Translations under genes and position numbers: made by a program
Part shown: positions 28 to 37,478 of the stretch, in pieces
Layout of the letters: each line of letters opens with the position of its first letter
Position numbering within the stretch: position 1 is the first letter of the stretch
Notes under the pieces: generated by a model
The model's input: the letters and a program-made list of their open reading frames with translations, nothing else
Told to the model about the DNA's origin: nothing
The model's database searches: none
Assembly (NCBI GenBank): GCA_026129165.1
Contig: JAHCIP010000015.1
Location: 1-38,609 of the forward strand
DNA from: Anaerolineae bacterium
GTDB lineage: Bacteria; Chloroflexota; Anaerolineae; Epilineales; JAHCIE01
DNA length: 38,609 nucleotides
Direction of reading: 5' to 3'

Positions 28-145
28 TTCGTAGTGCGTAATGCGTATTCCATATTTTCTGTCCGAGATACGAAATACGCACTACGAAATACGTATTACG
101 CATCACGCATTACCCAATCCCTAATCCTTAATCTTTAGTCTTGAA
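28..145. repeat. Degenerate heptanucleotide tandem repeat, upstream of murJ-like gene
   Basis: From 69 to 145 the sequence divides into eleven consecutive 7-bp units ending two bases before the murJ ATG. The sixth base is A in all eleven and the first base is T in ten. Units drift from TACGAAA and TACGCAT to TCCCTAA and then TCTTGAA. A second block at 28-62 has the same period (units such as TGCGTAA) and is partly complementary to the right block. No gene or convincing promoter was found in 1-147. The function is unknown. Confidence 0.75.
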
Positions 146-147
146 TC

Positions 148-1743
148 ATGTCCCAGCCTTCCCTCGGCCGCCGCATCTTTCGTGACACCGCCACCGTCAG
201 TATCATCGGCACGGCCGGCCAGGTGGTCGCCTATCTGATGACGGCCTATGTGGCGGCGACATTTGGGGCGGACTGGCGAACGGATGCGTTGGGGCTGGCG
301 CTGACCATTCCCATGTTTACGGCCAATGTGGTGCGGGAGGCCGTGCGGTCAGTTCTGGCGCCCACCCTGGTTGAGTTACGCGTGCGTGGGTCGCCCCGCC
401 TGGTCCATGTGGCCCGCCAGGGGGTGCTGGTGGTGACGGTCGGCGCGGTGGGTCTGGCGCTGCTCCTGGCGCTGGTGACACCAACCCTGTCTACCTGGCT
501 CGGCTATCAGCTATCCGACGCCGGGCAGGACTTGCTCCACCAGTTGAGCCTGGAACTGCTGCCCATGCTCCCGCTGTTGTGTCTATCTGGCGCGCTGGCC
601 TCCATCCTGGTCGCGCAGCACCGTTTTGGCCTGACCGCGACGTTACCCGGTGTGGACGCCGTCATCAAGATCGGTGTCATCGCACTCTGGGCGCGCGCCA
701 TCGGCATCCACAGCCAGGCATGGGGGAATGTTCTGGGCGCGGTGGCGGGCGTCGTTGTCCTAGGCGTGGCCGTGTGGCGGCTCGGCTATCTGGCCGCGCC
801 CGCCGGTGCTCCCTCGGCGGTGGAGGCCGGACACGGGCCGAGCATCGGCCACGAGATGCTCTACCCGCTGCTAGGCCTGAGCCTGCTCCAGTTGAACCCC
901 TATGTAGATCGGTTTATGGCAAGCCCCCTCCAGCCCGGCTCGGTGACGGCGCTGGGCTACGCCGAGAAGGTGGCCGCCATCCCGCACATCCTGTTCGGTG
1001 CGGGCTTCTATGGCGTCATCCTGACCCACTGGTCGGAGGTAGCGGCGTCCGAGGGGCCAACTGGTTTGCGGCGGGCGCTGCGTAACGCAACGGCGATGGT
1101 GATATTCCTGCTGGCGCCAGTGGTGACACTCTTCGTCGCGCTGCGCAGCGACCTGGTGGCCCTGCTGTTCCAGCGCGGCGCCTTCGACGCCCAGGCGACG
1201 GCGTTGACCTCGGCGGCGCTGGGCTTCCTGGCCGTCGCCCTGCTGCCCAACTACCTGTCGCTGCTGGTCTCGCGCGCCTTCCTGGCCCTCCAGGACCGCC
1301 GCGCCCCCATGTGGCTGGGTATCGGCAATGCTGTGGGCAATGTGACGCTCAACTGGCTGCTCATCGGCCCGCTGGGACTGGCCGGCATTACCCTATCCAC
1401 GGCCCTGACCCTGACCCTAGTGACAGTGGCAGGCTGGGTCTGGCTGCGCCGCCGTCTCGGCGCGCTCGATCTCGTGAGCCTGGTCAAGCCCACTGTCCAG
1501 GTAGCCCTGGCGAGCCTGGCGTGCGGCCTGGTCGCTCTCCTGATGCGGAGTGTGATCCCTGGGCAGGGGAGCCTGGCCCTATTTTTGCGGCTGGCGCTGG
1601 GCGGCGGCGCGGGGCTGCTGGTATACCTTGCCCTGACCTGGCTGTGGCGGGTCGAAGAGGCCGCCAAGGTTCAGTTCCTGGTTCGCAGCGCGCTACAGAC
1701 CCGCTTAGGCCGCTGGCAGAGCAAGCCTTTTCGACAGAATTAA
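148..1743 (+). CDS. murJ: MurJ/MviN-family lipid flippase-like membrane protein
   Basis: This is a 531-residue polytopic inner-membrane protein with a MurJ/MviN layout and about fourteen hydrophobic segments. The N-terminal stretch with FGADWRTDALGLALTIP resembles the FGA...DAF...RIPN region of the family. The family flips lipid-linked precursors such as lipid II across the cytoplasmic membrane. Because the gene is followed directly by three glycosyltransferases, the substrate could be another polyprenyl-linked glycan rather than lipid II; this is inference. The start is 2 bp after the heptad tract and has no obvious Shine-Dalgarno sequence. The stop lies inside a 9-bp repeat that runs into the next gene. 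Confidence 0.85.
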   Translation: MSQPSLGRRIFRDTATVSIIGTAGQVVAYLMTAYVAATFGADWRTDALGLALTIPMFTANVVREAVRSVLAPTLVELRVRGSPRLVHVARQGVLVVTVGAVGLALLLALVTPTLSTWLGYQLSDAGQDLLHQLSLELLPMLPLLCLSGALASILVAQHRFGLTATLPGVDAVIKIGVIALWARAIGIHSQAWGNVLGAVAGVVVLGVAVWRLGYLAAPAGAPSAVEAGHGPSIGHEMLYPLLGLSLLQLNPYVDRFMASPLQPGSVTALGYAEKVAAIPHILFGAGFYGVILTHWSEVAASEGPTGLRRALRNATAMVIFLLAPVVTLFVALRSDLVALLFQRGAFDAQATALTSAALGFLAVALLPNYLSLLVSRAFLALQDRRAPMWLGIGNAVGNVTLNWLLIGPLGLAGITLSTALTLTLVTVAGWVWLRRRLGALDLVSLVKPTVQVALASLACGLVALLMRSVIPGQGSLALFLRLALGGGAGLLVYLALTWLWRVEEAAKVQFLVRSALQTRLGRWQSKPFRQN

Positions 1744-7274: not shown

Positions 7275-8300
7275 ATGCCTGACAAACGCCAGACCCTGAA
7301 TGTACTGCTGACTCTGCGCTTCACCCCGGCCCAACTCGACAAGCTGCGCGCTGTGTCGCCGCGTCTGCACATCCAGCAGCGCACGGTGCGTCAGGGGATG
7401 AAGGTGACGGATGTCCTGGACCCCCGCGTCCACATCCTCTACACCGTCAGTACCGCGTTCCCGCTGTCGATGACGCCTGACTTACAGTGGGTTCAACTCC
7501 ACAGCGCTGGTGTCGAGCATATCATGGACACCGACCTCTGGCGCAGCGACCGGCCCCTCACCAGCCTGAACGGCATCCACGCCGTTCCTATCGCTGAGTA
7601 TGTCATCGCCCTGCTCCTGGCGTTCGCCCACCGTGTGCCGCGCATGTTGGACTACCAGCGGCGGGCTGAGTGGGCTACGGAACGGTGGGCCAACTTTGTG
7701 CCCTGGGAGGTACGGGGCAAGACCTTGGGGTTAGTGGGCTACGGGGCGATTGGCCGCGAGGTGGCGCGGCTGGGGCAGGCGTTGGGAATGCGGATTGTGG
7801 CGACCAAGCGCACCGCCAGCGACCCGCTTTACACCGGCTGGCAGCAGCGCGGCGTGGGCGACCCCGACGGTCGGCTGCCCGAACGCTTCTATCCGCCCGA
7901 AGACTTGCGCGCCCTGCTGGCCGAGTCGGACTATGTCGTGGTCACGACGCCGCTGACGCCGGCGACAGAGCGCCTCATCGGCGCGGCGGAGTTGGCTGCC
8001 CTGAAGCCGTCCGCCTTCCTGGTCAACGTGGGGCGCGGCGCGGTCATAGACCAGGCGGCGCTCGTCGCCGCGTTGCAAGCAGGGCGGCTGGCTGGCGCGG
8101 GCCTGGATGTGTTCGACGTGGAGCCACTCCCCGCCGACAGCCCTCTGTGGGGTATGGATAATGTGATTCTTTCGCCCCACATCTCCGGCTTCACCCCCCG
8201 CTACGACGACTGGGCCACGGACCTGTTCGCTGAGAACCTGCGCCGCTTCTTGGACGACGAACCCCTCATCAACCTGGTGGACCGCAGCCGCGGTTATTAA
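7275..8300 (+). CDS. D-2-hydroxyacid dehydrogenase (NAD-dependent)
   Basis: A 341-residue member of the D-isomer-specific 2-hydroxyacid dehydrogenase family. The Rossmann loop is LGLVGYGAIGREVARLG. The catalytic Arg lies in LVNVGRGAVIDQAALVAAL, Glu in DVFDVEPLP, and His in LSPHISGFTPRY. Such enzymes interconvert 2-oxoacids and D-2-hydroxyacids (glyoxylate/hydroxypyruvate reductase and phosphoglycerate dehydrogenase relatives). It lacks the ACT regulatory domain of long SerA forms. It begins 4 bp after the kinase-like gene, so the two are probably co-transcribed. The exact substrate is not readable. Confidence 0.87.
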   Translation: MPDKRQTLNVLLTLRFTPAQLDKLRAVSPRLHIQQRTVRQGMKVTDVLDPRVHILYTVSTAFPLSMTPDLQWVQLHSAGVEHIMDTDLWRSDRPLTSLNGIHAVPIAEYVIALLLAFAHRVPRMLDYQRRAEWATERWANFVPWEVRGKTLGLVGYGAIGREVARLGQALGMRIVATKRTASDPLYTGWQQRGVGDPDGRLPERFYPPEDLRALLAESDYVVVTTPLTPATERLIGAAELAALKPSAFLVNVGRGAVIDQAALVAALQAGRLAGAGLDVFDVEPLPADSPLWGMDNVILSPHISGFTPRYDDWATDLFAENLRRFLDDEPLINLVDRSRGY

Positions 8301-8314
8301 TCTCGGATCACAAG

Positions 8315-8348
8315 AACCTCCCGAAGGTTCTAAAACCTTCGGGAGGTT
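8315..8348. repeat. Palindromic repeat with CTAA loop
   Basis: Perfect 15-bp arms (AACCTCCCGAAGGTT and its complement) flank a CTAA loop in the gap between the dehydrogenase and dtd genes. No T-run follows. It resembles REP-like intergenic palindromes and shares its loop with the terminator hairpin at 9209-9254. Confidence 0.7.
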
Positions 8349-8379
8349 GGAGTTACGTAGGCTGTAGATGGAGGTGCAG

Positions 8380-14800: not shown

Positions 14801-14823
14801 GTGCCATGACGATGGGGGGGATA

Positions 14824-17800
14824 ATGTCCAGGCCACGAATGACGTTTCTCGTCGGGCTGCTCGCTGTGCTGGGATGCGCCTGGCTGCTCACCTCCAGCCA
14901 GGCCCTGGCCCGACCGGCCGGTGAGACGGGCGTGGGGCGCAAGCTAGCCGCCCCCAACACCGTCTTTCCTGTCAACCAGTTGGACGACCACGACGACGGG
15001 ACATGCGACGCCGACTGCACCCTCATCGAGGCTATCAACGCGGCCAATAGCGCTGGCGGCTCGAGTGATGTTGTCCTTCCGACCAATGCCACCTTCCTTC
15101 TGACCCAGATTAACAATTCCGACGCCACCTACGGCGCGAATGGCCTCCCCATCATCACCAGCGACATAACGATCCAGGGGAACGGCTCGATTATCGCCCG
15201 CGACACGAACGGGCCAGCCTTTCGCATTGTCCAGGTGGGCGGCGACGGGAAACTCACCCTCGATACCGTCACGCTCATGGGCGGGCTGGCGAATCTGGGC
15301 GCAGCCGAGGGGCGGCGGGGCGGGTGTATCTACAACCGCAGCGGCAGCCTGGGCGTGGTGCTGATGAAAAGCACGATAGATGACTGCGTAGCGTCTAATG
15401 CGGGTGGGGCAATCCTCAATGCTGGCCCGCTAACCCTTAACTCCTCCACCATCATCCAGACCTCGGCGACGGGTTTTACCATCTGGAACGAAAGCGGGAA
15501 CCTCCAACTCAACAATGTCACTATGTCGGGCAGCGGCCTCAGTTCCGGCATTGGTCATGGCGCCGGCAGCTCGACGACGATTACCCAGAGCACTATCACT
15601 GGTTTCAACAGCGGCGTCATCACCGCCGGCCACCCGGTGACCGTGACCCAGAGCATCGTCGCTGGCAATACGATCTTCCAGATCAATGGGGCCTATACCG
15701 ACGGCGGCGGCAACTATACCGGGACTGCCCCTCAGTTGAGTCCCCTGCGCTACTGGGGGGGCTCCACCAAGACGCGCTACCCGGCGCCCGGCAGCCCGGT
15801 CCGCAACACCATCGCCTCCTGCGCTTCGTCGGTGGACCAGCGCGGCCGGACGCGGCCCGCGCCGGGCAACGCCAACTGCGACGCGGGCGCGGTTGAGGCC
15901 AGCGACTTCGCGGTTACGACGACGGCCGACAGCGGGGCCGGCTCGCTGCGCCAGGCCATTCTGGACGCCAATAACCAGGCCGGCCTGGACCTGATCTACT
16001 TCAGCATCGGCAGCCCCGGCGTTCAGACCATCCAGCCGACCGACGCCAACCCCCTGCCCAACATCACCGACCCTGTGGTGATTGACGGGCTGACCCAGGG
16101 CGGCTCGGCCAATAGCGGCACGACGAGCCTGAATGCCGACCTGCGCGTCGTCATTGATGGCAGCTTGCTCACAACGGATGTGAACGGCCTGAAGCTGACC
16201 GGCGACAACAATGTCATTCGCGGTCTGGTCATCAACCGCGTGTCACCTTTCGCCTTTTTTACGAACGCCGACGGTATCGAGGTGGCGTCCAACGGCAACC
16301 GCATCGAGGGCAACTACATCGGGACGAATCCGACGGGAACGACCGCGCTGCCCAACTCCTACGCGGCTGTGCGTGTGACGGGGAACAACAATATCATTGG
16401 CGGTCGGACGCCGGATGCGAAGAACCTGCTGTCGGGCAATACCAATCAGGGCGTTTATATCGTTAATGCCTCCAATAACATCGTGCAGGGGAATTTTATC
16501 GGGGTGAATGCGGCGGGGACAGCCACCTTGGCTCAGGGGTATGGCGTATCCACTGTGTTAGGAGGCTCGAACAACACGGTGGGCGGGCCTCTCGCCGGCC
16601 AGCGCAACGTGATTGCCGGCCACACCTTCTCGGGTGTCTATACCGTCAGTCCTACAACCCAGACGCGGATCCTGGGCAACTATATCGGGACCACCTCGGA
16701 TGGCAGCGGGGCGCTAGGCAATAACGACGGTATCGAGATTAACGGGTCCGACGATAACATCATTGGCGGGCCAGTGGGAACGACGCCAGGCGGCGCCTGT
16801 ACGGGTGACTGCAACCTGCTCTCAGGCAATACCAACGACGGTGTCTATGCCTACGCGACGAGTAATAGCCGTATCCAGGGCAACTATATTGGCGCCAACG
16901 CTTCGGGGACGGGGGCAATAGCCAATGGCGTGTATGGCTTGTATCTCCTGGGCGGCACGGCTGGTAATAGCATCGGTGGGACAACTCCCAACGCCCGCAA
17001 TATCATCGCCGGCAATACCTCGGATGGTATTCTGCTCACAAGCGGACCCAAATTGACTACGATTCAGGGCAACTTCATTGGGACCGACACGACGGGGGTC
17101 GCCTCGCTGAGTAATGGAGGTGTGGGTATCCACCTCCTCTCGGCATCCAGTAACACGATTGGCGGAACAACGGGGACGACGCCCGGCGGCGGATGCGCCG
17201 GGGCCTGCAACCTCATTGCCAGGAATAGCATCGGAGTGTACATCGAAGGCAGCGGTTCGTCTGGCAACACGCTCCAGGGCAACTTTATCGGGACCAATGT
17301 GGCCGGCACAGCCGCGCTCAACAACACTAGTGAGGGCATCCTCATCAACCAGGCGCACAGCAATACGATAGGCGGCACGACCGCCGGTGCCCGCAACGTG
17401 ATTTCCGGCAACGGGACGTTTGGGATTCAGATCGCCAATGGGACGGCGACGGGCAACGTCGTCCAGGGTAACTTTATCGGGACGGATACGACGGGCACGG
17501 CCAATCTGGGCAACGGGAATGATGGGGTGCTGATCGCGGGCGCGCCGGGCAACACCATTGGCGGCGCTACGGGCACGACGCCGGGCGGCGCGTGTACGGG
17601 CGCGTGTAACCTGATTTCGGGTAACAACAACCACGCCATTGATATCACCGGCAGTAACGCGACCAGTAACGTGGTCATCGGCAACTTCATCGGGACCACC
17701 GTCAACGGCACGGCGGCGCTGGGTAACCTCGCGGGTGTTTATATCGAAAATAACGCGAATAACAACCGCATCGGGACCAATGGTGACGGTGTAGCGGATA

Positions 17801-20800
17801 CCGCCGAACGCAATGTCATCGCTGGCAACCTGCACAGCGGCGTTCAGATCCATGGACCGGTCACGGGCACCATTGTAGCCGGTAACTACATCGGCGTGGC
17901 TACGACGGGTGCGGCGGCGCTCGCCAACGAAGACGGCGTCTTAATCGATAACGGAGCCCAGTCGAATACCATCGGCACGAATGGCAGCAATGATGCCTTC
18001 AATACGGCCGAGCGCAACATCATCGCCGGCAATCTGAACACCGGCGTGCGATTGATAGGCCCAGCCACCAACAACAATGTCATCGCGGGCAACTATATTG
18101 GCCTCAACGTAACTGGCACAGCGGCGGTGGGGAATGGTAATGGCGGTATTTTCCTGGGCGTCGTCAGCCAGAGCAACATCATTGGGACCAACGGCGATGG
18201 GGTCGCGGACGACGCCGAACGGAATGTCATCTCTGGCAATACGGGCGATGGCATTGCCATTAGTAATTTCAACTCGGTCTCGAATGCCATCCGCGGCAAC
18301 TATATTGGCACGGACGCCACGGGCAACGTTGACCTGGGTAATACCGGCCACGGTATCTCTATCAACGGTCCCAGCGCGACGTTGATTGGCGCGGCGGTCG
18401 GTACGACTCCCGGCGGTTCATGTACGGGCGGGTGTAATGTCATTTCGGGCAATAGTGCCGATGGTGTCTACATTGCTGGGACGACAGCCAGCGGTACGCT
18501 TATCCAGGGCAACTTTATCGGTGTCAATGCGGCCGGAGCCGCCGCGCTGGGCAATGACGGGCGCGGCATCCTGATTGAGAATGCGCCGACAACGACCATT
18601 GGCGGGACGACGTCTTCGGCGCGCAACATAATCTCTGGCAATGGCGGGAACGGCATAGAGGTCTCGGATGTCGGGGCGTCGGGAACCATCATCCAGGGCA
18701 ACTTCATCGGGACCAATGCCTCCGGGCTGGGAGGCTTGGGGAATACTGAGGATGGCGTTAGGCTCACGACGGACGCCACAAACAACACCATCGGCGGCAC
18801 GACGGGGACGACGCCTGGCGGCGCGTGTAGCGGAGCGTGTAACCTCATCGCCGATAATGGCGGAAACGGCATCAGCATTACCAATCCGGGGACCGACAAC
18901 AATGTCGTGATTGGTAACTTTATCGGTACGGATGTCAACGGGACGCTAGACCTGGGTAACGACAGCGGGGTCTATATCGCCAGTGGCGCGACCGGGAACC
19001 GAGTCGGGACGAACGGCGATGGAACGGCTGACGTGGCCGAGCGTAACCTGATCTCAGGTAACTATTCAACCGGTATTGTGATCCAGGGCGACAGCACGAC
19101 CGATAACATCGTCGCCGGTAACTACATCGGAGTGGACACGACGGGCCTGGTAGGGCTTGGCAATAGCAATGGCGTGCGGCTTGACAGCGGCGCGCAGAAC
19201 AACCGCATTGGGACGGATGGCAGCAACGACGCCTATAACAGCGCCGAACGGAATGTCATCGCCGGTAATGCGGGAACAGGCGTCCTTATCACCGGTCCAG
19301 CCGCCGACGGAAATGTCATCGCTGGTAACTATATCGGCGTGGATGCCACGGGGGCGGCGGCTCTCCCCAACCAGGGCGACGGTGTGGCGATTACATCGAA
19401 CGGTAAGAACAACCGAATCGGGACCAACAGCGACGGGATTGCCGATGCCGCCGAACGCAATATCATCTCAGGTAACTTCTACAACGGTGTTACCATGAGT
19501 GGCATAGGCTCGACGGGCAACGTCGTGGCGGGCAACTATATCGGGACGGACGCGACGGGGACCGTCAACCTGGGCAATCTCGGCGTCGGCGTCTATATCA
19601 CGTCCGCGCCCAACAACACGGTGGGGGGCACGGCGCCCGGCGCGGGGAACCTGATTCGCGGCAACGACCGCGAGGGGGTCACGGTCCGCTATGCTCAGGC
19701 AACAGGCGACCGCATCCTGGGTAACTCCATCAGCCAGAACGGGACGCTGGGTATTGACCTCAATCCCACCACGAGCGAAGAGACTGGCGATGGCGTGACC
19801 CCCAACGATGTAGGGGATGCCGATAGTGGGCCGAATAACCTGCAAAACTTCCCGGTCCTGCAACAGGTTGAAGCCCACCCGGCTGATACGTTGGTGCTCG
19901 GGACATTGAATAGTACGGCCAACGCGACGTTCCGTATCGAGTTCTTCTCCAATGTAGCCTGTAACGCCTCGGGGTACGGGGAAGGCGCGACCTACCTTGG
20001 CTTTACCACCGTTAATACGGATGGCAGCGGGAACGCGCTTATCAATGCGACGCTGCCCATTACCGTGCCCTCCACGGCCACTATTACCGCCACGGCCACC
20101 AATAGCGGCAACAACACCTCCGAGTTTTCGGCCTGCCGCCAGGTGCGGGCATCGAATCGCAGTTGGGCGACGGCCCGCACCATCCCGCTGACGCTTATGG
20201 CGGAGCCAACCCGGCTGGAAGGCTCGGACAGCCAGTTCCTGACGCAGCAGGACGATTCGGCCTGGTTCAAGTTTACCATCCAGCCCCATGCCGAGGTCCA
20301 GATTGATCTGACCAACCTACCGGCCGACTACGACATGGCTCTGTACCGCGACCCCAACCTGGCTTACCAGAAGCTCAACGAGCCAATCACGCCGGTCGAA
20401 CTGGCGCAGCGCGCCGCGCCCGAAGGGTTCCTGCCCGAAGGGTTCCTGCCCGAAGGGTTCCTGCCCGAAGGGTTCCTGCCCGAAGGGTTCCTACCCGAAG
20501 GGTTCCTGCCCGAAGGGTTCTTGCCCGAAGGGTTCCTGCCTGAAGGCTTCCTGCGCGAGAAGTTCCTGCCCGAAGGGTTCTTGCCCGAAGGGTTCCTGCC
20601 CGAACCGTTCTCCCTGGCGGAGGCAGAGAGTCTGGTCTCGGTATCGGCCAACAAGGGTACCGAGAACGAGCGTATCATCCGCAAGACGTATGACAACACG
20701 GGTGAGTGGTATATCCAGGTCAAGGGTAAGAATGGCGCCTTCTCCCTCAATAACGCCTTCGATATCAAGGTCCAGATCTTCGGGAATTTCTGTGAAGGCG

Positions 20801-23800
20801 TGGGGCCGGTGACGGGGGCGCTGCCCGTCGGCGTCAGCGGCGGCTACAAGACCTTGATTCTGACCGACTTCACGCGTCTCCCCGGCACAGCCACCGAGAA
20901 GGCCGCTCTGCAGGCCCAACTGGCGCAGTTTATCAGCCGTGGCGAAGTGGCGGGCGTGGTCATTGACCTGGGCGAGTTGGTCCTGGGCAATCCCAAGTAC
21001 CCACGGGTCGCGGCCGCGAACGCCGCCGCCCAGACCGCGACCAACTGCCCGCTCGCCAAGAACATCCTGGCGAGTGAAATCAAGCAGGTCATCACAGCCT
21101 ATCGTAACGTCAACCCCGTCGAATATGTCGTTCTGCTCGGTAATGATGGCGTCGTGCCGTTCTTCCGCTATCCCGACCGCGCGGGCCTGGCGAACGAGAA
21201 CGGTTACTTCCCGCCGGTGATCGAGAACACCCACTCGCAGTCGTCCTTGCGGCTCGGTCAAGTCCTGGGTCAAGACGAATATGGGGCGTCCAAGTCGGTC
21301 CAGCGCAACGATTACAATTTGCCGCTGCCTGACCTGGCGGTGGGCCGCCTGGTCGAGTCGGCGGTCGAAGCCACGGGCGTTATCTCGTCCTACATCGCGT
21401 CAGGTGGCGTGCTGACGCCCAGTACGGGCCTGGTAACAGGCTACGACTTTGTAGCCGACACGGCGAACGCCGTGAAGACCGAACTTGACGCCGGCCTCAA
21501 CACCACGGTGGACAGCTTGATCCAGCCGGAAGGGCTACCCCCCAGCGACTCCACGGCCTGGACGGCGTCCCAACTCCGCACCGCCTTCCTCGGCAGCCGC
21601 CACGACATCACGTTCTTCGCCGGCCACTTTAGCGCGGTCGGTGCGGAGGCCGCCGATTACAAGACCCGTCTTACCAGCGCCGAGGTGGCCGAGTCGTCGG
21701 TCAACCTGGTCAATGCCTTTGTCTACAGCATTGGTTGCCACTCGGGCTACAGCATTGTGGACGGCCACGATGTGCCCGCTGTGACGGAGGAGCCGGACTG
21801 GGCGCAGGCGTTCGCGCGCAAGCGTATCACGAGTGTCATGGGCACGGGCTACCAGTACGGTGACACCGAGTTTATCGAGTATAGCGAACGGTTGTATCTG
21901 CAATTCACGCGCGAACTGCGCACGGGCAGCGGGCCGGTGCCCATTGGCAAGGCGTTGGTGAAGGCCAAGCAGGGGTATCTCGCGGCCAAGCCTCAACTGC
22001 GGGGCATTGACGAGAAGGCTCTGCTCATTGCGACGGTGTATGGCCTACCCATGTACAGCATCAATATGCCCGGCGGCCGGCTGGCGCCCTCGGACACCAC
22101 CTCTATCGTCCTGTCCACGACGCCCGTCCCCGGCTCGCCGTTTGTCCTAAGTACGGCCGATATTACCGTCACGACCGTCATTACCCCCCAGACGAAGACG
22201 CTCACCAATGTATCAACCAACACCAGCGTGACAACGACTTACTTTGTCGGCGAGGACGGGGTGGTGACGAACCCGCTGGAGCCGGTCCTGCCGCTCCAGA
22301 CCGAAGATGTGAGCGTGACGGGCAATACCCTGCGTGGCGTTGGCTGGCGCGGCGGTCTGTACACCGATCAGAGCGGGCTGACGCCACTGACGGGCGCGCC
22401 GGTTACGGAGTTGAGCGCGCCGCACCCGAACTTTAGCACGAAGACTTTCTTCCCCAGCCAGCCCTACACGACCAACTACTTCGAGGCGCTGTACGGCGAG
22501 GATACCTTCCTCAACCTGATACCGGCGCAGTACAAGTCGGACGCGCTTGGTTCAGTGACGGGGACCTTCCGCAAGTACGGACAGATGCGCTTCCGCCTCT
22601 ACTACAGTAACTCGACCAGCCAGGCCGCCAAGTCGCCCCCACCGGCGGTGAAGACCGTCCAGACGGTCTATAGCTCGCCGGCCGTGACGTTTACAGTGCA
22701 GGTGGAAGGTCAGGCCTCGGCAGGCATCGAGGATGTCTGGGTGGTCTATACCGCGCTCCAGGGTCCGTTGCACGGTGAGTGGAAGGCCCTGGACCTGAGC
22801 CAGGTCATCGCCCCGCCGAAGCGGGCGGCGACGCGTGACGCCACAACCCTGCAAACCTGGCAAGCCGCCCTAACGCTGCCCCAGCCTCAACCGGCCGGCG
22901 ATATTCTGTTCGCCGTCGTGGCGGCCAACGGCGTCGGCCTCGTCACGCTGGACACCAACGGCGGGGCCTATTACACGGTTCAGGTCGGCCCGCCGCCGGA
23001 ACCGCCGACGCTAAACACGACGCTCACCCTGAGCCTGCCCGCTCCGGGCGCGTACCGCGATGCGCGTACTTTCCAGGCCACGCTGCTCCAGGACGGCACG
23101 CCGCTGCCCGGTCAAACCATTGTGTTTGATCTGGGTAGTACGTTGCGCGAGGCCACCACCAACAGCAACGGCGTCGCGTCGTTTACGCTGACCATCAACC
23201 AGCTACCGAACGACTACGAGGTGTTTGTCAATTTCGAGGGCGCCAGCCCGTACAAGCCCTCCTCGGCCAGCGATACCTACACGGTGGAGAAGCAGAATAC
23301 GGTCATGGCCCTGACCTCCACATCTACCTTACCCGTCACAGTTCAGTATAGCGACCCTACGACGTTCCAGGCGTTCCTGAAGGACGACGAAACGCGGCCC
23401 ATCCCGGCCAAGACCGTCTTCTTTGTGCTCACGGGCGCCCAGACCGACGCCGTGCATGACATTACCAATGACCAGGGGCGGGCGATTATGGCGGCGCCGG
23501 TCTTGCCAGCCGGCACGTACTCTGTGACGGCCTACTTCGCCGGGACTCTACCGGCAGTCACTGGACAAACCACCATCATGGACGAGCGCTACAACCCGTC
23601 CCAGTCCTCCCAGGCCACCAGCGCGCTGATCATCACGCCCGAAACTGCCACCGTCCAGTACACTGGTGAGACCAACATTCTGGTGGGCACAACGCTGGAC
23701 CTGGCCGCGACGGTGATGCAGGACAATGATGGCTCCCCTGGCGATCTGCGCCTGGCTCAGGTTCAATTTGTGGTCAAGAATAGCTCCAACTTTACCGTGG

Positions 23801-25044
23801 CCACCCGCACCGTGACAGCCGACATCAATGGGGTGGTGACGGACACGGTGCCGAGCCTGGCCCTGGGGAATTACACCATCGAGACGACGGTCCTGGGCGG
23901 CTATTTCGCGTCGCTGTCGCCTGTGTTGACGCCGCTGACGGTCCAGGTCCCCTCGACCATCACCCCCACTTCGACCACGACGCCGACCCCCACCACGACC
24001 GCCACCCCGACGGTGACACCTACCGCCACGTCGACGGCGACACACACCGCCACGCCGACGGCTACGCCCACCTCTACGGCCACCGCGACGGCGACGGCCA
24101 CGGCGACAGCGACACACACCGCCACGCCCACCTCAACGGCGACGGCGACCGCGACGGCCACACCAACCGCGACAGCCACACCAACCGCGACGGCCAGTGC
24201 GACGGCTATGCCAACGGCCACGCCCACCTCAACGGCGACGGCGACCGCGACGGCCACACCAACCGCGACGGCCACGCCAACCGCCATATCAACCGTGACT
24301 GGAACACCGACCCAAACGGTGACGCCTGGCGCACAGACGGTAACGCCGACCCCAACCCCGACGCGCACGCCGATTATCCCGTCGAAAGCTGGCGCTGTGC
24401 GTAGCGGGACGTGGTACTTGCGCAACTCCTTGTCGAGCGGTTCAGCCGATCTCGTCTTTAGTTACGGTTTCGCCTCCGACGTGCCGCTCATGTGCGATTG
24501 GGATGGCAATGGCAGCAAGACGGTCGGCGTCTTCCGCAACGGCGCGTGGTACCTGAAGAACGCCAACGCGGGCGGGGTCTCTGATGTGGCTATCGCCTAT
24601 GGCATCGCTAGCGACGTTCCTATCTGCGGGGACTGGGATGGGGATGGCGTTGAGACGGTGGGTGTCATCCGTGGCAACGTGTGGTATCTCCGCAACAGCA
24701 ATACCAGCGGCATTGCCGATATGGTCATGGCCTATGGTCTAGTCGGCGACAAGCCAGTCGTCGGCGATTGGAACGGGGATGGTATTGACACGCCAGGCGT
24801 CTTCCGCGACGGAACGTGGTACCTCCGTAACAGCAATACCAGTGGCACGGCCGACTTCTTCTTTAGCTTTGGCTTGCCGCCCGGCGATGTGCCGCTGGCA
24901 GGCGACTGGAACGCCGACGCGGTGGACACGCCGGGGGTGATTCGAGGATCGTTCTGGTTCTTGAGGAACAGCAACACGTCTGGGGCGGCCGACCTCAACT
25001 TCAGCTATGGCGCGCTCGGCGATAGAATGATTGTCTGGCGATAG
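14824..25044 (+). CDS. Giant exported multidomain protein: beta-helix, PPC-like, C25-type protease, Ig-like, stalk
   Basis: A 3406-residue protein. Start ATG 14824 follows a G-run (14814-14820); ATG 14806 is an upstream alternative. Residues 1-29 are a Sec signal peptide ending ALA. A CSLREA-like segment (DGTCDADCTLIEAINAAN) and choice-of-anchor-type beta-helix follow. Residues ~480-1645 carry 17 NxIG beta-helix turns. Residues ~1780-1990 form a PPC-like beta-sandwich (LPADYDMALYRD...GEWYIQV) interrupted by a PEGFL pentapeptide array. Residues ~2010-2420 resemble gingipain/C25 caspase-fold proteases, with His2268 (FFAGHFS) and Cys2305 (SIGCHSG) as the likely dyad. Three Ig-like domains, a T/P/A-rich stalk and five ~45-residue C-terminal repeats complete it. 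It is probably a cell-surface or secreted protease/adhesin. No LPXTG, T9SS or PEP-CTERM signal is visible. Confidence 0.88.
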   Translation: MSRPRMTFLVGLLAVLGCAWLLTSSQALARPAGETGVGRKLAAPNTVFPVNQLDDHDDGTCDADCTLIEAINAANSAGGSSDVVLPTNATFLLTQINNSDATYGANGLPIITSDITIQGNGSIIARDTNGPAFRIVQVGGDGKLTLDTVTLMGGLANLGAAEGRRGGCIYNRSGSLGVVLMKSTIDDCVASNAGGAILNAGPLTLNSSTIIQTSATGFTIWNESGNLQLNNVTMSGSGLSSGIGHGAGSSTTITQSTITGFNSGVITAGHPVTVTQSIVAGNTIFQINGAYTDGGGNYTGTAPQLSPLRYWGGSTKTRYPAPGSPVRNTIASCASSVDQRGRTRPAPGNANCDAGAVEASDFAVTTTADSGAGSLRQAILDANNQAGLDLIYFSIGSPGVQTIQPTDANPLPNITDPVVIDGLTQGGSANSGTTSLNADLRVVIDGSLLTTDVNGLKLTGDNNVIRGLVINRVSPFAFFTNADGIEVASNGNRIEGNYIGTNPTGTTALPNSYAAVRVTGNNNIIGGRTPDAKNLLSGNTNQGVYIVNASNNIVQGNFIGVNAAGTATLAQGYGVSTVLGGSNNTVGGPLAGQRNVIAGHTFSGVYTVSPTTQTRILGNYIGTTSDGSGALGNNDGIEINGSDDNIIGGPVGTTPGGACTGDCNLLSGNTNDGVYAYATSNSRIQGNYIGANASGTGAIANGVYGLYLLGGTAGNSIGGTTPNARNIIAGNTSDGILLTSGPKLTTIQGNFIGTDTTGVASLSNGGVGIHLLSASSNTIGGTTGTTPGGGCAGACNLIARNSIGVYIEGSGSSGNTLQGNFIGTNVAGTAALNNTSEGILINQAHSNTIGGTTAGARNVISGNGTFGIQIANGTATGNVVQGNFIGTDTTGTANLGNGNDGVLIAGAPGNTIGGATGTTPGGACTGACNLISGNNNHAIDITGSNATSNVVIGNFIGTTVNGTAALGNLAGVYIENNANNNRIGTNGDGVADTAERNVIAGNLHSGVQIHGPVTGTIVAGNYIGVATTGAAALANEDGVLIDNGAQSNTIGTNGSNDAFNTAERNIIAGNLNTGVRLIGPATNNNVIAGNYIGLNVTGTAAVGNGNGGIFLGVVSQSNIIGTNGDGVADDAERNVISGNTGDGIAISNFNSVSNAIRGNYIGTDATGNVDLGNTGHGISINGPSATLIGAAVGTTPGGSCTGGCNVISGNSADGVYIAGTTASGTLIQGNFIGVNAAGAAALGNDGRGILIENAPTTTIGGTTSSARNIISGNGGNGIEVSDVGASGTIIQGNFIGTNASGLGGLGNTEDGVRLTTDATNNTIGGTTGTTPGGACSGACNLIADNGGNGISITNPGTDNNVVIGNFIGTDVNGTLDLGNDSGVYIASGATGNRVGTNGDGTADVAERNLISGNYSTGIVIQGDSTTDNIVAGNYIGVDTTGLVGLGNSNGVRLDSGAQNNRIGTDGSNDAYNSAERNVIAGNAGTGVLITGPAADGNVIAGNYIGVDATGAAALPNQGDGVAITSNGKNNRIGTNSDGIADAAERNIISGNFYNGVTMSGIGSTGNVVAGNYIGTDATGTVNLGNLGVGVYITSAPNNTVGGTAPGAGNLIRGNDREGVTVRYAQATGDRILGNSISQNGTLGIDLNPTTSEETGDGVTPNDVGDADSGPNNLQNFPVLQQVEAHPADTLVLGTLNSTANATFRIEFFSNVACNASGYGEGATYLGFTTVNTDGSGNALINATLPITVPSTATITATATNSGNNTSEFSACRQVRASNRSWATARTIPLTLMAEPTRLEGSDSQFLTQQDDSAWFKFTIQPHAEVQIDLTNLPADYDMALYRDPNLAYQKLNEPITPVELAQRAAPEGFLPEGFLPEGFLPEGFLPEGFLPEGFLPEGFLPEGFLPEGFLREKFLPEGFLPEGFLPEPFSLAEAESLVSVSANKGTENERIIRKTYDNTGEWYIQVKGKNGAFSLNNAFDIKVQIFGNFCEGVGPVTGALPVGVSGGYKTLILTDFTRLPGTATEKAALQAQLAQFISRGEVAGVVIDLGELVLGNPKYPRVAAANAAAQTATNCPLAKNILASEIKQVITAYRNVNPVEYVVLLGNDGVVPFFRYPDRAGLANENGYFPPVIENTHSQSSLRLGQVLGQDEYGASKSVQRNDYNLPLPDLAVGRLVESAVEATGVISSYIASGGVLTPSTGLVTGYDFVADTANAVKTELDAGLNTTVDSLIQPEGLPPSDSTAWTASQLRTAFLGSRHDITFFAGHFSAVGAEAADYKTRLTSAEVAESSVNLVNAFVYSIGCHSGYSIVDGHDVPAVTEEPDWAQAFARKRITSVMGTGYQYGDTEFIEYSERLYLQFTRELRTGSGPVPIGKALVKAKQGYLAAKPQLRGIDEKALLIATVYGLPMYSINMPGGRLAPSDTTSIVLSTTPVPGSPFVLSTADITVTTVITPQTKTLTNVSTNTSVTTTYFVGEDGVVTNPLEPVLPLQTEDVSVTGNTLRGVGWRGGLYTDQSGLTPLTGAPVTELSAPHPNFSTKTFFPSQPYTTNYFEALYGEDTFLNLIPAQYKSDALGSVTGTFRKYGQMRFRLYYSNSTSQAAKSPPPAVKTVQTVYSSPAVTFTVQVEGQASAGIEDVWVVYTALQGPLHGEWKALDLSQVIAPPKRAATRDATTLQTWQAALTLPQPQPAGDILFAVVAANGVGLVTLDTNGGAYYTVQVGPPPEPPTLNTTLTLSLPAPGAYRDARTFQATLLQDGTPLPGQTIVFDLGSTLREATTNSNGVASFTLTINQLPNDYEVFVNFEGASPYKPSSASDTYTVEKQNTVMALTSTSTLPVTVQYSDPTTFQAFLKDDETRPIPAKTVFFVLTGAQTDAVHDITNDQGRAIMAAPVLPAGTYSVTAYFAGTLPAVTGQTTIMDERYNPSQSSQATSALIITPETATVQYTGETNILVGTTLDLAATVMQDNDGSPGDLRLAQVQFVVKNSSNFTVATRTVTADINGVVTDTVPSLALGNYTIETTVLGGYFASLSPVLTPLTVQVPSTITPTSTTTPTPTTTATPTVTPTATSTATHTATPTATPTSTATATATATATATHTATPTSTATATATATPTATATPTATASATAMPTATPTSTATATATATPTATATPTAISTVTGTPTQTVTPGAQTVTPTPTPTRTPIIPSKAGAVRSGTWYLRNSLSSGSADLVFSYGFASDVPLMCDWDGNGSKTVGVFRNGAWYLKNANAGGVSDVAIAYGIASDVPICGDWDGDGVETVGVIRGNVWYLRNSNTSGIADMVMAYGLVGDKPVVGDWNGDGIDTPGVFRDGTWYLRNSNTSGTADFFFSFGLPPGDVPLAGDWNADAVDTPGVIRGSFWFLRNSNTSGAADLNFSYGALGDRMIVWR
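16260..19760 (+). repeat. Beta-helix repeat region inside the giant gene
   Basis: Seventeen N(Y/F)IG motifs, usually followed by a T/V-N/D-x-x-G-T-type turn and a paired NTIGG/NRIGT or RNxIxGN motif, recur every 50-90 residues. Alternating unit types (some with a GTTPGGxCxGxCN insert) suggest block duplication. DNA identity between units is only partial, so the repeats are old. Confidence 0.85.
20419..20613 (+). repeat. PEGFL pentapeptide (15-bp) tandem array
   Basis: Nine almost identical 15-bp units encode PEGFL, followed by REKFL, two further PEGFL units and a decayed PEPFS unit. The array is inserted between strands of the PPC-like domain (residues ~1866-1930). High DNA identity implies recent slippage or duplication, so copy number probably varies between strains. 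Confidence 0.93.
23959..24385 (+). repeat. Thr/Pro/Ala low-complexity stalk
   Basis: About 140 residues of T-A-T-P-T-type sequence encoded by imperfect ACC/ACG/GCG codon repeats. Such regions act as extended, often O-glycosylated, spacers between surface domains. Several blocks are duplicated almost exactly. Confidence 0.85.
24397..25041 (+). repeat. Five C-terminal WYLRN/DWDGDG repeats
   Basis: Units of about 45 residues each begin with G-x-W-Y-L-(R/K)-N and end with G-D-W-(D/N)-G-D-G-x-x-T-x-G-V, resembling FG-GAP/VCBS-like propeller blades with possible calcium-binding DxDxDG loops. They may form a C-terminal ligand-binding or anchoring domain. Confidence 0.75.
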
Positions 25045-25047
25045 ACC

Positions 25048-25096
25048 TGACGGAGGACGGAGGACGGAATAGGGAATAGGGATGGGAGAGGGGAGA
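25048..25096. repeat. Heptad tract (GGACGGA-like) after the giant gene
   Basis: Seven consecutive 7-bp units begin 4 bp after the stop codon; bases 6 and 7 are G and A in all seven. Units change from GGACGGA to ATAGGGA to GGGGAGA. The composition resembles the tract at 2629-2698. Confidence 0.72.
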
Positions 25097-34313: not shown

Positions 34314-34439
34314 GAACGATGAACAAGGAGCAAGGAGCTATCAGCTATCAGCTATCAGCTGTCAGCCCTCGGCGCTGAGGCATTCGTGTCTATTCGTGGA
34401 TCCACCTGTCCGTCTTCCGTCCTCCGTCCTCCGTCGGGA
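34314..34439. repeat. Composite heptad tract in the GDPD/mevalonate kinase gap
   Basis: Ten 7-bp units run from 34314 to 34383 (GAGCTAT and CAGCTAT types), then an ATTCGTG pair 10 bp apart, then four more heptads at 34405-34432 (GTCCTCC type). The second block is the reverse complement of the GGACGGA units at 25048. The tract encodes the tail of mevalonate kinase. Confidence 0.75.
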
Positions 34440-36299: not shown

Positions 36300-37478
36300 A
36301 TGCCCCCGCGCCTCATCTATATGGATCACGCCGCCACAACGCCGGTCCACCCCAGTGTCGTTGAGGCCATGCTGCCCTACCTTACTGAACATTATGGCAA
36401 CCCGTCCAGCGTCCACCGTCAGGGCCGCGCCGCCCTTGCCGCCCTGGATGAGGCTCGCCGTCAGATTGCCAGCGTGCTTGGCTGCTCGCCCCGCGAAGTG
36501 ATTCTGACGGGCAGCGGCTCGGAGGCCGACAATCTAGCCATTCGCGGCGCGGCGTTGGCCCGCCGCGAGCGGGGAGGGGGGAATCACATTCTCACTAGCG
36601 CGGTCGAACACCACGCCGTGCTGCACACTGTCGAGCAGTTGAGGGATCATTTTGGCTTCGAGGCGACGGTTCTGCCGGTGGACGGATATGGCCGCGTCAG
36701 CCCGGCTGACGTGGAGGCCGCCCTCCGCCCGGACACAGCCCTCGTCTCCCTGATGCTCGCCAACAACGAAATCGGGACGCTCCAGCCCATCGCAGAGATA
36801 AGCCGCCTTGTCCGCGCGCGCGGCGTCCTGCTGCACACCGACGCGGTCCAGGCCGGGGGGCTGCTGGATATCAATGTGGAGCGCCTGGACGTGGATATGT
36901 TGACGCTCGCTGCGCACAAGTTCTACGGCCCGAAAGGCGTCGGCATTCTGTATGTGCGCCAGGGGACTCCCCTCCTGCCGACCATCACCGGCGGGAGCCA
37001 GGAGCGTAACCGCCGGTCGGGGACGGAGAATGTGGCGGGCGCGGTGGGGGCGGCGGCGGCGCTGGTGTGGGCACAGGCTCACCGCGAGGAACATGCCGCG
37101 TCTCTAGGGCGGCTGCGCGACCGGCTCATCGAGGGCGTCCTGGCGAGTGTGCCTGATACGGTCTTGACCGGGCATCCGACCCAGCGGCTACCCAACCTCG
37201 CCAGCTTCGCCATAGATCGGCTGCATGGGGCGGAGGAACTCTTACTTGGCCTGGACCTGGCGGGCATCTGCGCCTCCAGTGGCTCGGCCTGCACCTCCGC
37301 CAGCCTGGAGCCGTCCTATGTCTTGCGGGCGTGCGGCCTGCCGACAGAGCTTGCCATCGGCAGCTTGCGTCTCAGCCTCGGCTACCAGACCACCGAGGCC
37401 GATGTCGAGCATGTCCTGGCGACCCTTCCGCCATTGGTCCAGCGGCTACGCGCGCTGGCGAGGATGATGCAGGCGTAA
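36300..37478 (+). CDS. Cysteine desulfurase (NifS/IscS family)
   Basis: A 392-residue PLP enzyme that takes sulfur from L-cysteine for Fe-S clusters, thiamine or tRNA thiolation. IYMDHAATTPVHPSVVEAM and HYGNPSSVHRQG form the N-terminal signature. EHHAVLHT contains the PLP-stacking His, and AAHKFYGPKGVGILYVR has the Schiff-base Lys207. Cys331 in SSGSACTSASLEPSYVL is the persulfide cysteine. The loop is of the IscS/NifS type rather than SufS. It stands before nuoB, which needs a 4Fe-4S cluster. No iscU or mnmA gene follows. Confidence 0.93.
   Translation: MPPRLIYMDHAATTPVHPSVVEAMLPYLTEHYGNPSSVHRQGRAALAALDEARRQIASVLGCSPREVILTGSGSEADNLAIRGAALARRERGGGNHILTSAVEHHAVLHTVEQLRDHFGFEATVLPVDGYGRVSPADVEAALRPDTALVSLMLANNEIGTLQPIAEISRLVRARGVLLHTDAVQAGGLLDINVERLDVDMLTLAAHKFYGPKGVGILYVRQGTPLLPTITGGSQERNRRSGTENVAGAVGAAAALVWAQAHREEHAASLGRLRDRLIEGVLASVPDTVLTGHPTQRLPNLASFAIDRLHGAEELLLGLDLAGICASSGSACTSASLEPSYVLRACGLPTELAIGSLRLSLGYQTTEADVEHVLATLPPLVQRLRALARMMQA

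Follow-up and report, generated by a model that had tools for sequence, protein, structure and literature searches.

The window, by which we mean the whole stretch of 38,609 nucleotides analysed here, opens with a short low-GC tract at positions 28–145 (39% GC; window 65%), located at the extreme start of its contig (C57) and directly upstream of murJ. The assembly, from an uncultured Anaerolineae bacterium, is a single MAG of 6.5 Mb in 598 contigs, with an estimated contamination of 4%. The tract is built of 7-bp units, and two further tracts of the same class are found in the window. The features are as follows.

28–48, minus strand: left hairpin arm of inverted heptads, CGTANNN, equivalent to TACGNAN on the minus strand (from complementarity and lag-7 periodicity).
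55–68, minus strand: conserved asymmetric loop TTTTCTGTCCGAGA, reading TCTCGGACAGAAAA on the minus strand; the same loop (TCTCRGAnnAGAAAA) occurs in many other copies.
69–110, plus strand: right hairpin arm, TACGAAA TACGCAC TACGAAA TACGTAT TACGCAT CACGCAT (from unit statistics).
111–145, plus strand: in-phase extension of the right arm, TACCCAA TCCCTAA TCCTTAA TCTTTAG TCTTGAA, with the register unbroken from 69–110.
148–1743, plus strand: murJ, lipid II flippase (Pfam MurJ PF03023, E = 1.5e-50), a neighbour outside the element.
25046–25086, unstranded: heptad tract of the same class, passing from GACGGAG to GGAATAG, 1 bp past the stop codon of a 3412-aa ORF (period-7 scan, gene calls).
34314–34377, unstranded: heptad tract of the same class, passing from CAAGGAG to AGCTATC, at a gene junction (period-7 scan, gene calls).

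Other repeats are also present in the window. Short heptad arrays (TCCGTCC, CCGTCCA) at 34409–34435 and 36402–36420 fall under the threshold of the period-7 scan, and a period-9 repeat (GACAGAATG-like) bridges the 3′ end of murJ and the beginning of the gene that follows (1733–1766), two genes that overlap in the sister genome described below. The 3412-aa ORF (14806–25044) carries a 15-bp unit, GCCCGAAGGGTTCCT, repeated 12.5 times at 20418–20604 as an in-frame five-residue repeat, together with low-complexity repeats of 12–96 bp near its 3′ end (23962–24299). At 8300–8367 there is another dispersed short hairpin, AACCTCCCGAAGGTT-N4-AACCTTCGGGAGGTT, which is intergenic both here and in the sister genome; it is terminator-like and does not have a period of 7.

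Autocorrelation of 28–145 at lag 7, the analysis proposed in the initial annotation, gives 76 matches out of 111 compared with 28.9 in dinucleotide shuffles (z = 10.3), and none of 5000 shuffles reached the observed value. Harmonics are seen at lags 14 (z = 7.6) and 21 (z = 5.2) while the remaining tested lags are flat, and positions 28–68 taken alone yield a lag-7 z of 4.0. Positions 69–145 contain eleven heptads, no two adjacent ones identical, with A at base 6 in all eleven and T at base 1 in ten, and the array ends 2 bp ahead of the murJ ATG at position 148, exactly as first reported. The proposed tract of sixteen units does consist of heptads, but not of one array; the block at 28–62, taken as its earlier part, has a period of 7 but is built of the reverse complement of the unit (CGTANNN versus TACGNNN) and is offset from it by 41 bp, which is no multiple of 7. 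The figure of sixteen thus merges two opposed blocks, one with about 4 units and the other with about 11. A telomere-like TCCCTAA unit is indeed present, albeit as a stage in a drift that keeps the phase (TACGCAT, CACGCAT, TACCCAA, TCCCTAA), with nothing telomeric indicated; since units also change in phase in other tracts of the genome (L007, L029 and L062, for example), we regard this stretch as drift along the tract and not as a separate motif.

Because the 28–62 block is the inverted form of the 69–145 unit, the region constitutes an imperfect hairpin. Its arms (28–48 and 68–88) are 21 nt long and 90% complementary, positions 49–67 are left unpaired, and the strand as single-stranded DNA folds 3.2 standard deviations better than shuffles (z = −3.2). 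Other copies, such as L018 and L006, have a right arm with a similar order of units. A non-coding, degenerate heptad tract beside murJ had been recognized correctly, although the hairpin, the genome-wide family to which it belongs and the fact that nothing links it specially to murJ had been missed.

A motif-blind self-match scan covering 700 kb, roughly a tenth of the genome, revealed 49 period-7 tracts, compared with 0–6 for each other period from 1 to 13; peaks at periods 14 and 21 are harmonics of 7. The initial annotation had named an absence of such tracts elsewhere in the genome as a refutation, and they are abundant. Chance, base composition or an assembly artefact at a contig edge might be invoked for a tract of deviant GC content at the very start of a contig, but this is exceedingly improbable, given that no dinucleotide shuffle attains the lag-7 value, other periods give no comparable signal, and dozens of related copies lie within other contigs and in other genomes.

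The tracts are strongly biased towards intergenic DNA. Only 30% of tract bases are coding compared with 89% of the genome (about 70% and 11% non-coding, respectively), these shares resting on gene calls built from codon usage in this analysis, and 18 of 32 tracts have an edge no more than 10 bp away from the 3′ end of a gene, against 10.7 expected (P = 0.001). At the murJ locus itself, frame 1 of the tract is open up to a TAG at 136–138 and could be the tail of an upstream gene. Like heptanucleotide long simple sequence repeats (LSSR), the tracts have 7-bp units in tandem beyond chance and lie mainly outside coding sequence, as expected where the unit is no multiple of 3; near-perfect identity of the units is lacking, with adjacent units agreeing at 77% of positions. 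Unit similarity drops with distance (0.77, 0.70, 0.65, 0.57, 0.53, 0.51 and 0.45 for lags 7 to 49), a pattern consistent with units being gained and lost locally. Mismatches are distributed unevenly across the seven unit positions, and several heptad families merge into one another in phase.

In this genome we read 29 distinct hairpins like the one in the window, with arms of TACGNAN units. Many of the 29, although not all, have in common the asymmetric loop TCTCRGAnnAGAAAA, which may lie in either direction. Arm polarity is nearly uniform, with 86 pattern matches to CGTA-loop-TACG and 3 to the reverse, these figures being matches rather than counts of loci because matches overlap. A four-unit TACGNAN pattern is found in 89 of 298 Anaerolineae genomes, with a distribution that is patchy even inside genera, and polarity is specific to each genome (205 to 0 in G229, 2 to 35 in G123 and 2 to 50 in G113), as are the loops where these were read. 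G229, a partial genome of 2.2 Mb from the same class, has 205 hairpin matches (e.g. G229:C1:14079-14128), and among the matches listed there is a near-constant loop of its own containing ACGACTGGACGG. GACGNAN arms characterize a second family, which matches 28 times in this genome and is present in 20 of 120 genomes; in G119, also of the same class, hairpins with GACGNAN arms (e.g. G119:C7:11366-11406) have the repeated loop edges AACCAATTCG / AATTGGTT. Among 33 elements, a few of them taken from other genomes, CCTA is found at 11 of 66 arm ends while other one-step variants of CGTA occur at no more than 4 each; this hints at a defined terminus, although most ends are unlike one another.

These tracts could instead be independent local satellites, each formed at its own site when a heptad present by chance slipped during replication, with the arms produced by fold-back template switching and no dispersal involved. 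Such an origin would account for the decay of unit similarity with distance, the in-phase grading of heptad families and the greater likeness of arms at the same locus (0.77, versus 0.68 between different loci; permutation P = 0.0005, allowing a one-unit shift); moreover, heptamers are a common class of bacterial repeat, for which slippage of the polymerase has been put forward (PMC4679880). However, neither an asymmetric loop shared by many loci nor a fixed hairpin polarity in each genome is expected from separate origins, and we consider local satellites an unlikely account. One loop at many loci is hard to obtain by slippage site by site, which points to copying of the hairpin.

A search with MurJ identified a single close relative, the MAG TGS_CHL1, here called the sister, which has 28 period-7 tracts in 944 kb, with different units. 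Orthologous loci had been suggested as the place to look for unit gain or loss; at the sister murJ there is no tract, and the gene ahead of murJ extends into its start. The tract of the window consequently has no special tie to murJ, and we reject its reading as a regulatory site specific to murJ. The upstream gene in the sister encodes a glycosyltransferase, of which no close orthologue was found in this genome (best identity 35%). We found 30 conserved junctions between the two genomes, some of them double-counted where loci overlap, and five distinct ones bear a tract here. The heptads of this genome are present at none of these five in the sister (0/5). At two, the corresponding position in the sister holds a hairpin built of different heptads (judged by eye), which may reflect replacement, reuse of a favoured site or a retained function; its murJ junction and one further junction have no such hairpin whatsoever.

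We also considered whether the hairpins are functional RNA or DNA structures at co-directional junctions, tuning termination, mRNA stability or translation, with the heptad sequence free to vary. Between co-directional genes lie 29 of 32 period-7 hairpins compared with 55 of 93 other hairpins, and between convergent genes 3 of 32 compared with 37 of 93 (P = 0.0017). This distribution, the excess of tract edges at gene 3′ ends, the two sister junctions holding hairpins of other heptads and the unequal mismatches across the unit would all suit a functional role. On the other hand, co-directional junctions already make up about 81% of the intergenic regions overall, and the sister lacks any such hairpin at murJ and at another junction. 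No terminator-like site is found at positions 1–400 of the window, and a T-run follows only 1 of 32 period-7 hairpins; lying between co-directional genes and lacking T-runs, these are no ordinary terminators. The window has no Rfam match and pair counts are not above shuffles, so that a structured RNA of the Rfam type is also rejected. In a fixed register, compensatory change at the variable arm positions does not exceed that in shuffles, and arm pairing depends on the fixed CGTA cores. Taken with its evidence on both sides, a functional hairpin seems to us a distinctly improbable explanation.

A G-quadruplex was discarded, since it calls for at least four runs of three G on one strand and 28–145 contains just two runs of that length, C and G taken together. 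The tracts resemble REP/BIME and MITE elements in being short, intergenic, imperfect palindromes with dozens of copies in both orientations, but differ in having arms of variable numbers of tandem heptads, no linked Y1 transposase and no target-site duplication. The genome has two Y1_Tnp reading frames, and no period-7 tract lies around either, arguing against a REP/RAYT system; the search for the target-site duplication of a MITE was negative, as the sharing of flanking words does not exceed that among permuted copies (P = 0.24). A copying enzyme and a clean empty site were sought, and none was found.

The reading that we favour, and judge to be probably correct, is that the tract belongs, as one copy among many, to a palindromic repeat dispersed between genes, with heptad (TACGNAN) arms and an asymmetric loop shared by many copies, which is copied, subsequently drifts by slippage and is not specific to any gene. 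The hairpin would have been copied into the murJ junction after the lineage split from the sister species, and its arms would then have lengthened, shortened and drifted through slippage of whole units, with the right arm continuing in phase as TCCCTAA-like units up to murJ. Presumably these changes are close to neutral, and the element would be confined to intergenic DNA since adding or removing 7 bp breaks the reading frame inside genes. Several observations count against this dispersed palindrome: the uneven mismatches go beyond neutral slippage alone, the loop is present in only part of the copies, the hairpins of other heptads at two sister junctions could reflect a retained function, and the search for a copying enzyme, a target-site duplication and a clean empty site was negative. 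Less probably, the family may represent an undescribed class of non-autonomous copying elements in the Anaerolineae. These would be recognised through their paired heptad arms, in whose unit TACG and A are fixed and positions 5 and 7 are free; each genome would have its own loop, the ends would be CCTA/TAGG, and an enzyme would spread the elements, which would be exchanged completely from one sister species to the other.

In a 2007 survey cited by PMC4679880, no class of long repeat was as common as heptamers in most genomes. The Xanthomonas GGGNATC and Nostoc GGGGA(C/T)T repeats (PMC4692102) are likewise dispersed intergenic heptamer arrays with a preference for aligned ORFs, and Xanthomonas has about 70 inverted pairs of arrays (PMC4692102). 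These are G-rich quadruplex formers with little variation among units, and 83% of sites are kept between two species (PMC4692102), whereas the Anaerolineae heptads are degenerate and not G-rich, and share neither sites nor units with the sister. In the same phylum, the available text on Chloroflexus aurantiacus describes (GATAGRA)n satellites that are also dispersed heptamer arrays and that its authors think were transposed through the genome (PMC6749651); the unit is different, and that portion of the text does not mention hairpin arms or a shared loop. The Beggiatoaceae TAACTGA repeats (PMC4679880) are similarly intergenic and near start codons of genes without a functional theme, but have one fixed unit that is repeated directly, apart from one inverted instance. 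Our literature search found no named heptad palindrome of the Anaerolineae or Chloroflexota.

Heptamer repeats and inverted heptamer pairs are thus already published in other bacteria, and the present addition is a palindrome family of the Anaerolineae that is degenerate, loop-bearing and genome-specific and whose sites turn over fast, as judged from few comparable junctions. It also advises caution, in that heptad tracts upstream of genes are not necessarily gene-specific regulatory sites. The excess of heptamers in bacteria has been on record since 2007 and its cause is not settled. The family offers natural variation, with several heptad types in a single genome, genome-specific loops, opposed polarities, and relatives with and without it, so that slippage, mobile copying and RNA function become separable through comparison of close strains.
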